This document shows positions 17,666-25,071 of a stretch of 28,030 bases of DNA, piece by piece. The stretch spans positions 1-28,030 of the IMG/VR virus record IMGVR_UViG_3300035688_001182. One strand, 5' to 3'. A program made the translations under genes and the position numbers. Every line of letters begins with the position of its first letter. Within the stretch, counting starts at the first letter, position 1. Source of the DNA: a virus. Below the pieces are notes generated by a model that was not told the origin of the DNA, searched no databases, and worked only from the letters and a program-made list of their open reading frames with translations.

Positions 17666-19132
17666 ATGAGACATCGTAGGGAATTCTTCAAAATTCACCA
17701 ATTACGACGCATCTATGATAAGAACGCTGGCAAATTCACCTTTAACATTGCTTACGAGACCGCCGCCAAACTCACGCCCAGAACTGTCGCCGTTGCTGAA
17801 GCCTTCGGCCTGGGTTTGGACCAAGGTGAAAAATTCGTAGTCTTAGATAATGTCGAATTGAAAATAGGGCCTCGAGACGTCGTCTACATCACTGGCGATA
17901 GTGGTAGCGGCAAGAGCGTTCTACTGCGAGCCCTCCAGAAGGATCTCGGCGAAGAAGCAGTCGACATAGCCGGTCTGCAGATCAATTCTAAGAGGCCGTT
18001 GATTGAAACCTTGGGCAAGTCAATTGAAGAGGCGCTTAATCTCCTTTGTAAAGTAGGCCTCAACGATGCTTTCCTCTTCCTGCGCACCTACGATCAGCTG
18101 AGTGATGGCCAGAAATACCGTTACCGCATAGCGAAACTGATGGAGAGCAAGAAGCAATGGTGGGTTTTGGATGAGTTTGCAAGTACGCTTGATCGTGATA
18201 CGGCGAAGATCGTGGCGTTTAACCTTCAGAAACTGGCCCGGGAAAGCGGAAAGGCGGTTCTAGCGGCAACGACGCATACGGACCTGCAGGAGGACCTCCA
18301 TCCCAGTGTATGTATTCACAAGCGTTTCGGCAAGGAGATTAGCGTCGAATATTTCTCAAACGAGCCCAGTGCTGAATGTAGCTTGGTCCGGGAAATGGAG
18401 ATCCGCCCTGGGCTCTTGGATGATTGGCGGAGGTTGAGTGGTTTCCACTATCGAAGTCATAGGTGCGGGGCAACGAGAGAGGTGTTCTGTATGCGCAGGG
18501 GGTACGAGCTCTGTGGCGTAATACTCTACAATTATCCGCCGATCGCCTGTTTCGGCCGAAACCTTGTCTTGCCAAAAATGAGTGTCAAGGACCTCAACAA
18601 GAATGTAAGTATCATCAGCCGGATCGTGATTCACCCGAAGTATCGAAGCATAAGCTTGGGCTCTAGACTGATTCGAGACACTTTGGCCAAGGTGGGCACG
18701 CTTTATGTGGAGATGGTGGCGGTTATGGCTCGATACAATCCTTTCGCAGAGAAGGCTGGAATGCAACGCGTTATTTTTTCGACTCCTGGGAAGGAGGCAT
18801 TGAAGATCGCGGATGTGCTGGAAGGGTTCGGTTTTAACTCTAAACTTTTGGGCAGTGAGAGGTACGTGATGGGACGTTTGCAGAGGTTGAGTCTAAAGAA
18901 AATGGCCATTTTGAAGCAAGCCTTTAAGGAGAATAATCATCCGCGGCTTCAGAGGGATATCGGAGGTGACAGGCATCTGCCTTACGGCACGAAGGAAGCT
19001 TACGTTCAGGGAATTAATGCGGCAAACCTGCAGGACATGGCGAAACTGATCAAGGTCGTCGGCATGCTGCTCCAAGTGAAGGCCTATCTTTTCTGGCAAC
19101 GCCCGTCTCTTCAAGTCGGACTCAAAAACTAG
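17666..19132 (+). CDS. ABC-type ATPase fused to GNAT acetyltransferase
   Basis: 488 residues, two domains. Residues 45-230 are an ABC ATPase without membrane spans: Walker A GDSGSGKS (77-84), signature LSDGQ (145-149), Walker B WWVLDE (165-170) and H-loop His204. Residues about 245-400 read as a GNAT fold: CGVILYNYPP, then SRIVIHPKYRSISLGSRLIRDTL (acetyl-CoA site with R...G-S) and YNPFAEKAGM. The last 90 residues are extra. Because it lacks a transporter partner it is a soluble enzyme; such ABC-GNAT fusions occur in archaeal genomes and mobile elements, with unclear role. It has its own promoter-like box, so it may be an accessory gene acting on host proteins or RNA. Confidence 0.85.
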   Translation: MRHRREFFKIHQLRRIYDKNAGKFTFNIAYETAAKLTPRTVAVAEAFGLGLDQGEKFVVLDNVELKIGPRDVVYITGDSGSGKSVLLRALQKDLGEEAVDIAGLQINSKRPLIETLGKSIEEALNLLCKVGLNDAFLFLRTYDQLSDGQKYRYRIAKLMESKKQWWVLDEFASTLDRDTAKIVAFNLQKLARESGKAVLAATTHTDLQEDLHPSVCIHKRFGKEISVEYFSNEPSAECSLVREMEIRPGLLDDWRRLSGFHYRSHRCGATREVFCMRRGYELCGVILYNYPPIACFGRNLVLPKMSVKDLNKNVSIISRIVIHPKYRSISLGSRLIRDTLAKVGTLYVEMVAVMARYNPFAEKAGMQRVIFSTPGKEALKIADVLEGFGFNSKLLGSERYVMGRLQRLSLKKMAILKQAFKENNHPRLQRDIGGDRHLPYGTKEAYVQGINAANLQDMAKLIKVVGMLLQVKAYLFWQRPSLQVGLKN

Positions 19133-19656: not shown

Positions 19657-20163
19657 ATGTTAGTGAAAAAGGCAGCCATGATTGTCATTGCAGTTGCTCT
19701 TGCGGCCACCTTATCAATTGTGTTCGCTAATCTGATCTTAAGCAACACTCTCACAGCATCTTGGACGGTTCAAGAGTCAGGCTCAAACTTGGTACTGTGG
19801 TGGGATTCAAACACGCCAGGAGGCACACTTAACCGTGGAGTATGGTATCAGACTGGGATAGGCCTCCAGAACGTCGGCGTAGCCACCTACAAGATCACGC
19901 TGATATTCCGGATCTACACTGACATAAGCCTCACTACGACGGACGTGAAGACACAATACTGGGACGGCTTAGCATGGCAGGACCTACCGCTAACCGTGCA
20001 GACTGTGGGCGGGCGCGACATACTTGTGGGCACTTTTGGCCCAGGAGGCGGCTTTGATGTTGGACCCGGCTACAATGTTGTCACGCAATTCAGGTATTAC
20101 TTTGAAGGCTCCGCTCCCGTTGGGCATGGCTACAGTTTTGACACATGGGCAGAACAAGTCTAA
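19657..20163 (+). CDS. Exported beta-sandwich protein with N-terminal anchor
   Basis: 168 residues: a hydrophobic signal or anchor at about 6-28 (MIVIAVALAATLSIVFANLIL), then a beta-sandwich-like domain with many Trp, Tyr and Thr (WYQTGIGLQNVGVATYKITLIFRIYTD). It resembles small exported archaeal proteins of the SipW/TasA-like type and the protein at 6878, though I see no close identity between the two. It has its own promoter, hairpin leader and ribosome site AAGGAG, and an oligo-T tract after it, so it is a stand-alone unit. It may change the host surface, for instance to block superinfection. Confidence 0.65.
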   Translation: MLVKKAAMIVIAVALAATLSIVFANLILSNTLTASWTVQESGSNLVLWWDSNTPGGTLNRGVWYQTGIGLQNVGVATYKITLIFRIYTDISLTTTDVKTQYWDGLAWQDLPLTVQTVGGRDILVGTFGPGGGFDVGPGYNVVTQFRYYFEGSAPVGHGYSFDTWAEQV

Positions 20164-21404: not shown

Positions 21405-22769
21405 TTGCCAATTAGTGACATAAAATCTGTTGCAGTTGATAAGATCGACCGTAACCCATGGAATCCTAACGTAATACAAAAAGAAGAATATGATGCCCTC
21501 AAACAGGATATGCACATTCACGGCGCCACTGGCATCGACCCGCTTCTCATCTCCCCTAAGAAGTTTTTCTTCAAGGCACAGGATCACAAAGAGGGTTCGA
21601 CTGCTGACACGTACATTATTGTTGATGGTGAGCACCGGTGGCGGGCTGCCAAGGAGCTCGGCTGGAAGGAGATCCGCTGTGAGATCCGGGAAATCAGTGA
21701 GGATGATGCTAAGGCTCTCTGTTACCGGCGCAACCGGGAACGCGGCAACATCGACCCTTTCAAAGAAGCGTTGCTCTTCAAAACGGAGGTGCCTAAGCTA
21801 TCGCAGGCCAAGATCGCCGGCAAGTACGGTGTGGACCAGTCGACCGTCAGCCACCGCTTGAGCCTCCTAAAAATTGACGCTCAGATCGTTGCGAAGGCTA
21901 AGATTATGCCACGTGGCATAATCACGCCCAGTCACCTTGAAGCATTGGCGACCTTGGAGCCTAAAGACCAGAAACAAGTCTTTCAGCAGTATGACCGAGA
22001 CCGTTCATATCGTCAGTGGGGCGTGAAGGAAATGCAGGAGCAGACGGCACGTGTCAAGAAAGCGCGTGAAGAGGAAAGGGCTCTTGCAGAAGCGTTGCAA
22101 ACAGCGAAGTTTCCGAAATGCCCCAAATGCAGGAAAGGTTCTCCCAAACGTGTCTGCCATAAGGGTTTGCCATGGGTAACATGTAGCAGTTGCTTGGATG
22201 ACTGGAACCTGGAAACTGGCAAGCGACTCTATGAGCCTGAAGTATCCACACAGAAGGGGCTGGACGGCAAATCGGAACCCATAAGGCAGAAGACGATCCG
22301 CTGCGCTCACACAGTAAGAGAGTTGGTTGAGGTTTTTGTGGAAAGGGCAAAGGAAATCGTGCCGAAAGTAGATATCGCAAGCCTCAAAGTCTCGGGAAAG
22401 CTGGATGGGGCGCAGTTTGGGTTCGACTTCTCTTCCTATGGTAAATCGGTATCTGTCTCGTGGCATAGCAACGCATTATGGAGAGGATTCAGGGCTGAAG
22501 AGCACGAATACCGGACCGGCGAAAAGTCCGCTGTCGACACACACTCTTCCGATCATGTGGAAGAAGTGAAGCAACTCATCGAGAACGCGTTTCAAGGCAA
22601 ACTCGGAATCGAGTCTAAGCGGTTGAAAAAGGCCAAGACTGCTGAGGAACTGATTCATGATCTTCATCCGGAGGAGCCTTTGGAAGCTGACACGATCCAG
22701 ACGACCGACAACCCGAAGGAATCGCTTGCCGCAGATGAAGCAAAAAGGGCTCTTCTTGAGGAAGATTAG
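21405..22769 (+). CDS. ParB-like partition/nuclease-fold protein with zinc insert
   Basis: 454 residues from TTG at 21405. Residues 1-125 are a ParB N-domain: KIDRNPWNPN, VDGEHRWRAAKELG (74-86; the GERRxRA nucleotide box of ParB) and RRNRERGNIDPFKEALLF (108-125). Residues 131-155 are the helix-turn-helix (LSQAKIAGKYGVDQSTVSHRLSLLK) that reads parS in true ParBs. A cysteine cluster follows (Cys239, 242, 251, 260, 263), then a C-terminal domain of about 170 residues that I do not recognise. The protein thus looks like a DNA-binding clamp, or a ParB-fold nuclease. No ParA ATPase is present; a HerA-like ATPase lies downstream. The gene itself contains a 22-bp palindrome. Confidence 0.87.
   Translation: MPISDIKSVAVDKIDRNPWNPNVIQKEEYDALKQDMHIHGATGIDPLLISPKKFFFKAQDHKEGSTADTYIIVDGEHRWRAAKELGWKEIRCEIREISEDDAKALCYRRNRERGNIDPFKEALLFKTEVPKLSQAKIAGKYGVDQSTVSHRLSLLKIDAQIVAKAKIMPRGIITPSHLEALATLEPKDQKQVFQQYDRDRSYRQWGVKEMQEQTARVKKAREEERALAEALQTAKFPKCPKCRKGSPKRVCHKGLPWVTCSSCLDDWNLETGKRLYEPEVSTQKGLDGKSEPIRQKTIRCAHTVRELVEVFVERAKEIVPKVDIASLKVSGKLDGAQFGFDFSSYGKSVSVSWHSNALWRGFRAEEHEYRTGEKSAVDTHSSDHVEEVKQLIENAFQGKLGIESKRLKKAKTAEELIHDLHPEEPLEADTIQTTDNPKESLAADEAKRALLEED
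21902..21923. repeat. 22-bp perfect palindrome, parS-like
   Basis: Half-site GATTATGCCAC followed by its exact reverse complement, centred on CACGTG. It lies in the ParB-like gene at codons 166-173, just after the helix-turn-helix. Bacterial parS is a 16-bp palindrome with the same CACGTG centre and in Bacillus one copy lies in the parB gene. Role as binding site is inferred. Confidence 0.6.
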
Positions 22770-23147: not shown

Positions 23148-23449
23148 AGCGGGTTCAACGGAAAAGGACCAAGGGCTGGCGAATGCCTCCCAACACGGTT
23201 TATGTTGGAAGACCGACTAAATATGGAAATCCCTACAAAGTGACGTCATTTAGTTTGAAGATTAAGGGAATGGATAGAGAGAACGCCATTAGGATGTACG
23301 GATTGTGGCTTTCTCAAAAGTTGATAGAAGATCCGCATTTTCTTGACTCATTGAAAGGTAAGGATTTGGCTTGTTGGTGCCCCCTGGACAAACCTTGTCA
23401 TGCTGATGTGTTGCTCAACTTTCTCGAAGGAATGGAGGTTTTTATTTGA
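23144..23449 (+). CDS. DUF4326-family protein
   Basis: 101 residues from TTG at 23144. Recognisable DUF4326 features: VYVGRPTKYGNPYKV, a helix AIRMYGLWLSQKL, and KGKDLACWCPLDKPCHADVLLNFL, whose Cys/His residues are conserved in the family. These small proteins are common in phages and bacteria and have no settled function; metal binding is likely. It overlaps both neighbours by 4 bases, so it is translated together with the HerA-like protein. Confidence 0.83.
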   Translation: MKRVQRKRTKGWRMPPNTVYVGRPTKYGNPYKVTSFSLKIKGMDRENAIRMYGLWLSQKLIEDPHFLDSLKGKDLACWCPLDKPCHADVLLNFLEGMEVFI

Positions 23450-25071
23450 AGTTGCGTTTGAGCTCCGATTTTGCAATCGACACTGATGTTTACAAGCGTG
23501 AAGGCCTACGCATTAGTATATTAGCGATGAGTGGCCATGGCAAGAGCAACGCAGCAGCCGACCTCGTTGAAGACGTCCTGGATAATCACGCGCAAGTAAT
23601 CATCATCGAGCCCATACCGGAATGGCACACGTTGAAAGCGAGATACAACAATATCGTAGTGATCGGAGGGCCCTACCAGGATCTTCCGCTCGAACCCGCT
23701 TTCGCTCATGAGTATGTTTTGGCTGCATTGGAGAAAGGCATAAGCCTCATAGTCAACGTCAGCGACATTGAAGACGAAGTTGAGCAGCTCCATTTTGTCT
23801 CTAGCTTTTTGTGGAATCTTTATCGCCTCGAGCAGAAGTACCGCCGGGTCTTGTTCTTGGTGCTCGAGGAAGCAGATATTTGGGCTCCTCAAAGCTGGGA
23901 TCAAATGAGCAAACCAAGCCTCTCCAGAGTAAGCTTGATCGCCAAGCACGGCCGCAAAATCGGCATCTTCCCGATTCTCATCAGCCAGCGCCCCGCGGAC
24001 CTGCACAAGAGCCCCCTGAGCCAGTGTAACATCAACCTTTTCGGCAAGTTCACGAGCCCAGCGGATCTGGACCCGAAGACCGGCATCATGTACGTCGTCA
24101 AGAAACTTCATCTACCCATCACGGAAGAGCAGATCATGAAGTTGCCCACGGGCTCTTTCGTCGTCTCGCACAAGGGCGGCGTCGACACGATCCCGGTTCG
24201 GAAACGGATCTGTCCTCATGGCGCCGACACTCCGCTCATCGAGCCCAAGCCCTTTACGGCAGATCTCTCGAGGGCCCTCGGAGGCCTACGTGACGAAATC
24301 TCCAAAGCGATAGCGGCCAAGAAAGACGAAGAATCAGTTGTGAAACGGCAAGAGAAGGAGATTGTGCGGTTGAAGAGGGAAAATGAGGAGCTCGAGGCGA
24401 AGGCGAAGATCAAGATGTCAGTCAAGGAAATGCTTCAGCAAGATAAGGATGTAGGGGTCGCGACCCCTAGCTTGAACGTGGTTCCTGAGGATGTTCGGAA
24501 AAGGCTTGCCTTTTTGGGTGAGCAATTGGCTGAAAGTGCTAAGAAGATAGAGTGGTTTGAGCTTAAGGAGAAACAGTACAAGCAGCGTTTGGATCAGGCT
24601 GAAAAGGACCTGAAGGTCTACGATGAGTTGCGATCTTGGCTACGCATGGCGATAAACGTACAGAACATCTATGACAACATTCACCGGGTTGAGGAAAAAA
24701 TACCTACTGCTATACCTACGCAGATACCTACTGATGGCGACGTACCTGGCAAAGTTGTTGTTACTGAGACTATTCCTGAGATTCATCACAAGATTGAGCG
24801 TCCGATTCTGGAGACTGACGAATCCACACATGAAGGTCGTCTGATTACTCTTACACTTCATGGTTTCTTCGATGAAAAGAGGCGCGTTATCGCTATAGGG
24901 AAGGAAATCACTCGGACTTATGGTGTTCAGGTTAACACGAAGGCCTTGAATGAGGCGTTGGAGAGTATGATTCAGAAGAAGACTCTGCAACGTGAAGAGA
25001 CATCGAATGGCGGCTGGGAGTACTGGACCTATCCCGGAGCCAAGGACCGAATCAAAGAGGTTGATCGTTGA
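23446..25071 (+). CDS. HerA-like DNA translocase ATPase
   Basis: 541 residues from TTG at 23446 with GGAGGT upstream. N-terminal HerA/FtsK-superfamily ATPase: Walker A MSGHGKS (28-34), Walker B VLFLVLEEAD (135-144), and the HerA line LIAKHGRKIGIFPILISQRPADLHKS (164-189). Residues about 280-400 contain coiled coil broken by a linker, followed by an IPT-rich stretch near residue 420, and a winged-helix-like domain at 455-540. Cellular HerA works with NurA nuclease; none is seen here, but a ParB-fold protein is three genes upstream. It could move DNA for replication, segregation or packaging. A separate packaging motor is already present, so a genome maintenance role is favoured. Confidence 0.87.
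   Translation: MKLRLSSDFAIDTDVYKREGLRISILAMSGHGKSNAAADLVEDVLDNHAQVIIIEPIPEWHTLKARYNNIVVIGGPYQDLPLEPAFAHEYVLAALEKGISLIVNVSDIEDEVEQLHFVSSFLWNLYRLEQKYRRVLFLVLEEADIWAPQSWDQMSKPSLSRVSLIAKHGRKIGIFPILISQRPADLHKSPLSQCNINLFGKFTSPADLDPKTGIMYVVKKLHLPITEEQIMKLPTGSFVVSHKGGVDTIPVRKRICPHGADTPLIEPKPFTADLSRALGGLRDEISKAIAAKKDEESVVKRQEKEIVRLKRENEELEAKAKIKMSVKEMLQQDKDVGVATPSLNVVPEDVRKRLAFLGEQLAESAKKIEWFELKEKQYKQRLDQAEKDLKVYDELRSWLRMAINVQNIYDNIHRVEEKIPTAIPTQIPTDGDVPGKVVVTETIPEIHHKIERPILETDESTHEGRLITLTLHGFFDEKRRVIAIGKEITRTYGVQVNTKALNEALESMIQKKTLQREETSNGGWEYWTYPGAKDRIKEVDR
24452..24469. repeat. 18-bp perfect palindrome in HerA-like gene
   Basis: Half-site TAGGGGTCG joined to its exact reverse complement with no spacer. 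It falls in a weakly conserved linker of the protein, so coding constraint is a poor explanation. A related interrupted form, AGGGG-5 bases-CCCCT, is at about 23112-23126. Confidence 0.5.
24700..24731 (+). repeat. Three 8-bp direct repeats at 12-bp spacing
   Basis: ATACCTAC at 24700, 24712 and 24724. They encode repeated Ile-Pro-Thr in a linker between the coiled coil and winged helix. May be just a protein linker, but the iteron-like spacing is notable beside possible partition sites. Confidence 0.4.

Follow-up and report, generated by a model that had tools for sequence, protein, structure and literature searches.

A CACGTG-centered palindrome within a viral parB gene is a putative parS-type nucleation site for the encoded ParB

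ParB, including Spo0J, and the related proteins Noc and KorB are nucleotide-dependent clamps that slide along DNA. Work on Caulobacter ParB and Bacillus subtilis Noc has yielded a recognition code in which Arg173 reads G1 and Gln173 reads A1, Gly201 pairs with A6 and Arg201 reads C6, and Gln173 requires a lysine at position 179 or 184; the corresponding consensus sites are TGTTTCAC-GTGAAACA for parS and TATTTCCC-GGGAAATA for the Noc binding site, NBS (PMC7383237). In B. subtilis, one such site, parS-359, sits within spo0J/parB (PMC4442127), and among viruses the temperate mycobacteriophage RedRock possesses a ParB with centromere sites (PMC7157519).

We analyzed a 28,030-nucleotide stretch of viral DNA (hereafter the window), which encodes a ParB. 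Genes for a terminase, portal, HK97-type capsid, and tape measure identify its source as a tailed virus. The record is incomplete: open frames continue past its two ends, that of the terminase on one side and that of an integrase-like gene on the other; given the latter gene, the virus is probably temperate, and integrase-like genes occur in two related genomes, G005 and G006, as well. The features considered here are as follows; the residue equivalences were obtained by alignment.

21405–22769, + strand: parB, 454 amino acids, TTG start behind a GGAGG motif, with ParB_N and HTH_ParB domains
21417–21713, + strand: ParB_N domain, residues 5–103, with the nucleotide-binding motif GEHRWRA
21753–22052, + strand: HTH_ParB domain, residues 117–216; its coding DNA contains the palindrome
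21837–21839, + strand: Gln145 codon, equivalent to Caulobacter residue 173; predicts adenine at position 1
21870–21872, + strand: Lys156 codon, equivalent to residue 184, the permissive lysine
21902–21923, no strand: putative parS of the viral ParB, perfect 22-bp palindrome GATTATGCCAC-GTGGCATAATC
21905–21920, no strand: 16-bp core TATGCCAC-GTGGCATA, in the same register as bacterial parS and NBS
21930–21932, + strand: Ser176 codon, equivalent to residue 201 and preceding a conserved His; not Arg, so C6 is not predicted

The ParB_N fold and HTH_ParB, in canonical order, place the protein in the ParB family; both Pfam domains score above their cut-offs (38.4 and 31.0 bits), as does TIGR00180 (62.1 versus 58.45). 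By sequence, the nearest solved structures are Noc (7ng0, 2e-17) and Spo0J (1vz0, 8e-16), and the fold predicted by AlphaFold, with low confidence overall (mean pLDDT 59; about 60–85 across ParB_N and the helix-turn-helix), matches Noc, ParB, and KorB. The C-terminal part beyond HTH_ParB, where ParB-family members have a dimerization domain, contains CxxC pairs; past residue 216 there are no Pfam matches at E 0.01, and the structure model is of low confidence. The first nucleotide-binding motif (GERRxRA type) reads GEHRWRA, and the second (ENLQR type) aligns with RNRERG, which retains the Asn and Arg and replaces Glu with Arg. This replacement, within RNRERGNIDP (window 21729–21758), characterizes the family of the window ParB, here termed W, and may alter CTP hydrolysis by its members.

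An initial annotation of this DNA had reported the 22-bp perfect palindrome within a ParB-like gene and judged it improbable by chance in 28 kb; both statements held, as approximately 0.007 such palindromes are expected (28030/4^11). It is the longest perfect, gap-free palindrome in the whole window, the runner-up being 18 bp (24452–24469), and its center is the CACGTG of a 16-bp palindrome. The sequence forms codons 167–173 of ParB (I-M-P-R-G-I-I), its first base being the last of codon 166 and its center splitting the Arg170 codon (C/GT). Within the window, CCACGTGG occurs once, and there is neither a second copy of the 22-bp palindrome at ≤3 mismatches nor a further TATNCCACGTGGNATA site at ≤2. 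A candidate at 22452, with 3 mismatches to TATNCCACGTGGNATA, was unconvincing and was discarded.

Protein-only scans recovered five relatives: G001 (L002), G005 (L041), G006 (L043), G014 (L063/L109), and G043 (L110). G014 was first encountered through the DNA motif and then recovered independently by protein alone. Together with the window these form a set of six homologues, mostly 53–62% identical, and all six carry CCACGTGG at identical codons. The palindrome at this site is the longest within its gene in each homologue, with arms of 11 bases in the window, 8 in G001, G006, and G014, and 6 in G005 and G043, where it spans just 12 bp. More distant homologues (L003–L005, L111, L112, and L116) do not have the site. 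In G006, the exact 16-bp sequence TATGCCACGTGGCATA is present three times: in parB, at 19728–19743, where a likely start codon follows shortly, and at 29379–29394 in a region without a convincing gene; at that stringency the window, G001, G005, G014, and G043 contain the intragenic copy only, and a reversed pattern, searched as a control, gave zero matches. Scattered copies of the respective sites, counted with ≤2 mismatches, were found in records of the viral ParB families surveyed below: G015 (6), G042 (6), G039 (4), G011, G040, and G041 (3 each), and G038 (2). The IMG/VR records G042, G041, G015, and G039 (behind L132, L144, L124, and L136) are phage-like and encode a ParB; each bears 3–6 sites of parS- or NBS-like sequence, most of them separated by several kilobases, with one inside parB.

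The published code allows the site to be compared with the protein. Gln145 and Lys156 of the window ParB align with residues 173 and 184, Arg151 with residue 179, and Ser176 with residue 201, a combination that predicts an NBS/parS hybrid with A1 and A6; both bases are present in the half-site TATGCCAC. Across families, Gln173 proteins accompany TAT..ATA sites (in G040, just one half of the intragenic site), a pattern that is partly ascertained, as the TAT part served in some searches; for the L144, L132, and L126 sites the palindrome, not the TAT pattern, came first. Cores are CAC in families whose residue 201 is Ser or Gly and CCC in the two where it is Lys or Arg: L144 (Lys201) and L132 (Arg201) carry several TATTTCCC-type sites per record.

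A second ParB paralogue, ParB2, is encoded in G005 (L048:5942–7288, minus strand) and in G001. The G005 gene holds a 26-bp palindrome, AACATTATCTAGC-GCTAGATAATGTT, centered 2 bases from the homologous position, and its inner 20 bases recur at G005:23053. Scanning for this motif led to G045 (L208), whose ParB2 gene reads AACATTATGTAGC-GCTACATAATGTT at codons matching those of the G005 site.

ParB2 candidate sites for G005 and G045: TATCTAGC-GCTAGATA and TATGTAGC-GCTACATA

The encoded peptides are Q-H-Y-L-A-L-D-N-V in G005 and Q-H-Y-V-A-L-H-N-V in G045. Both differences (L to V and D to H) are nonsynonymous, and jointly they preserve the palindrome. Although it comes from a single pair of sequences, this compensatory change is the clearest sign of selection on the DNA palindrome. 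Further copies of the ParB2 palindrome occur at G045:33059, at G046:20762, and, as ATTATTTAGCGCTAAATAAT, at G001:21168. The G001 ParB2 gene (L052:303–1691) contains a 14-bp palindrome, TTGTCCC-GGGACAA (center after 1212), offset by approximately 12 nt from the position homologous to the site; it might be a diverged NBS-like site or a product of chance.

Perfect palindromes can serve dimeric DNA-binding proteins in general, and the link to ParB is made through sequence, so the window site could instead belong to another DNA-binding protein, such as a viral or host repressor, a methylase, or an integrase, and happen to fall in parB. Against this, the site's bases change with the ParB specificity residues from family to family (A6 becomes C6 with Lys or Arg201, for example), and the second ParB family carries a palindrome of a different sequence close to that position. 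We regard this alternative as very unlikely.

Slightly less probable still is a coincidence of codons, in which I/M-P-R-G-I happens to permit a palindrome without selection. The initial annotation had noted that the peptide favors part of the palindrome, and indeed a 12-bp version arises here in approximately 4–5% of synonymous shuffles. With the protein and the gene's own codon use held fixed, however, an 11-base arm appears in only 0.25–0.3% of shuffles (a chance of 0.0025–0.003), so the protein sequence by itself does not account for the palindrome. The homologues point the same way. CCA and CGT are invariant in 6/6, though other Pro and Arg codons vary (elsewhere, single-codon invariant columns number 1/6 for Pro and 1/6 for Arg), and the six windows of highest excess synonymous conservation (ranks 1–6 of 449 codon windows) all overlap the palindrome. 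The pair at ±5 covaries, with ATG or TTG (G) facing GGC (C) in the window, G005, G006, and G043, and ATT (T) facing GGA (A) in G001 and G014, such that the third base of the Gly codon follows its palindrome partner. The exact extragenic copies in G006 and the amino acid-altering ParB2 pair likewise argue against coincidence, which the shuffles and the six homologues lead us to reject. Synonymous loss of the palindrome in relatives had been proposed at the outset as grounds for abandoning a parS-like reading; relatives instead keep it, at synonymous sites and by covariation, which strongly supports a putative loading site for the same gene's ParB.

Least likely of all is a hairpin in the parB mRNA that acts in regulation or termination through base pairing rather than protein–DNA binding: the strand does fold, with energies below those of shuffles in the window (z −2.3) and G001 (z −3.3), but folding is inconsistent across the four homologues (z +0.6 in G005, −1.5 in G006), the invariant CCA and CGT third bases lie unpaired in an ACGU loop, and the extragenic copies stand upstream of a start codon or away from any convincing gene.

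Taken together, the palindrome is very probably a parS-type nucleation site of the ParB whose gene holds it. Four elements of this reading draw on sequence directly: the same-gene site, selection on the palindrome, the extra copies in G006, and agreement with the recognition code; clamp loading and spreading by the window ParB we infer. The helix-turn-helix of a ParB dimer would read both TATGCCAC half-sites, after which the dimer would shut as a nucleotide-dependent clamp and slide to adjoining viral DNA in the manner of Spo0J, Noc, and KorB. With the site written in the I-M-P-R-G-I-I codons, gene and cis-acting site would travel together, and ParB's first loading place would be its own gene.

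We surveyed 80 loci with canonical viral ParBs, comprising 50 non-redundant families, for palindromes centered exactly at this codon position. At least 6 of 8 pairs match in 4 of the 50 families, against 0.9 expected from synonymous shuffles (p 0.008). With the two families first found via the motif removed, at least 7 of 8 pairs match in 2 of 48, against 0.14 expected (p 0.005); at the 6/8 threshold, the reduced set is not significant (p 0.16). A site in parB as a rule for every ParB is ruled out by these figures (4/50 non-redundant canonical viral families only), and the codon position is recurrent, not universal. Twelve named records from bacteria, plasmids, and phages were compared as well; among them, Paenibacillus parB has TGTTTCACGTGGAACA at these codons. 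We tentatively suggest, as a possibility that falls a little short of an even chance, that a parS written just after the helix-turn-helix codons is a recurrent, selected design in viral and some bacterial ParB genes, selected strongly enough for the protein to take paired amino acid changes that preserve the palindrome. If so, parB would constitute a module that is portable because its DNA-recognition domain is encoded by the very DNA that it recognizes, and clamp loading would be coupled to parB's own expression.

Two broader proposals of the initial annotation fared less well. An archaeal virus or host is unsupported, two pattern scans of prokaryote genomes having returned no relative. A self-contained partition system is likewise unsupported: no ParA-type Walker A motif occurs in the six frames of the window, no scanned window ORF matches the ParA family, and the window ParB lacks the ParA-binding LG[KR]GL, so that the ParA gene and binding motif that mark class Ia ParABS are both missing within an incomplete record. 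Because the record is a fragment, ParA could be encoded elsewhere. Among archaeal canonical HTH-bearing ParB fusions, a 2025 survey found that ParA is seldom present (PMC12704722). Since neither ParA nor its binding motif was found, a Noc- or KorB-like clamp appears likelier than a complete ParABS system. Its purpose is less certain; marking or organizing the DNA of the virus, or a parB operon that limits its own expression, would be likelier than complete self-encoded ParABS, and genome marking, host-assisted maintenance, and self-limiting parB transcription fit as well.

A HerA/terminase-like ATPase is encoded shortly downstream of parB (23446–25071) and adjoins parB in G005 too; it is a possible ParB partner in place of ParA. 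The HerA-like gene contains the perfect 18-bp palindrome at 24452–24469, TAGGGGTCG-CGACCCCTA, which is not conserved in G005. Separately, window 17666–19132 encodes an ABC-type ATPase whose G006 relative (L050:7026–9008) is a single long protein: its N-terminal portion matches a ParB_N-like protein of G001 (L052:9913–10467), and weak acetyltransferase matches lie close to its C-terminal end.

The window offers a natural, compact case of one DNA stretch apparently selected both as protein code and as binding site of the same protein, with covariation providing an argument for this dual selection. It takes parS biology into temperate viruses where ParA was not found; the hybrid parS/NBS sites are as the published specificity code predicts, and ParB2 adds a second, new palindrome–protein pair with which to extend that code.

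Several known systems share parts of this arrangement. B. subtilis parS-359 is likewise a parS inside its own parB coding sequence. In Listeria and Priestia, parB carries TGTTTCACGTGAAACA or CGTTCCACGTGAAACA, spelled by VSRET/VPRET codons in an identical reading frame, but in a linker past the DNA-binding domain, whereas the window site TATGCCAC-GTGGCATA lies right after the helix-turn-helix, seven codons ahead of the conserved His. A chromosome-type parB of Paenibacillus cellulosilyticus (L213, from a 2.7-Mb record filed as a plasmid) has TGTTTCACGTGGAACA at identical codons (DVSRGTLSMGH) and phase; this is a canonical parS with G1, and its ParB, unlike that of the window, has the ParA-binding LGKGL. 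Noc is nearest by sequence and fold and has Gln173 and the outer TAT..ATA in common with the window, yet its NBS, TATTTCCC-GGGAAATA, has a CCC core read by a protein with Arg201, against CAC and Ser here; the window pair has neither the CCCGGG center nor Arg201, and the Noc NCBIfam model scores the window ParB at 69.5 bits, far under its cut-off of 315. KorB of plasmid RK2, a ParB-like clamp that acts as a regulator, resembles the window ParB in fold (TMt 0.66), with no sequence evidence for membership. RedRock is a temperate phage with ParB and centromere sites, as the window virus probably is with its putative site; it differs in having ParA and in parS loci each made of eight direct repeats of an 8-bp motif rather than a 16-bp palindrome in parB. 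The literature searched, which included few subscription papers, contained no report of a fixed codon position, covariation, or recurrence in viral ParBs. Relative to these systems, what appears new here is the hybrid parS/NBS sequence, its viral setting, and a recurring codon position with covariation.
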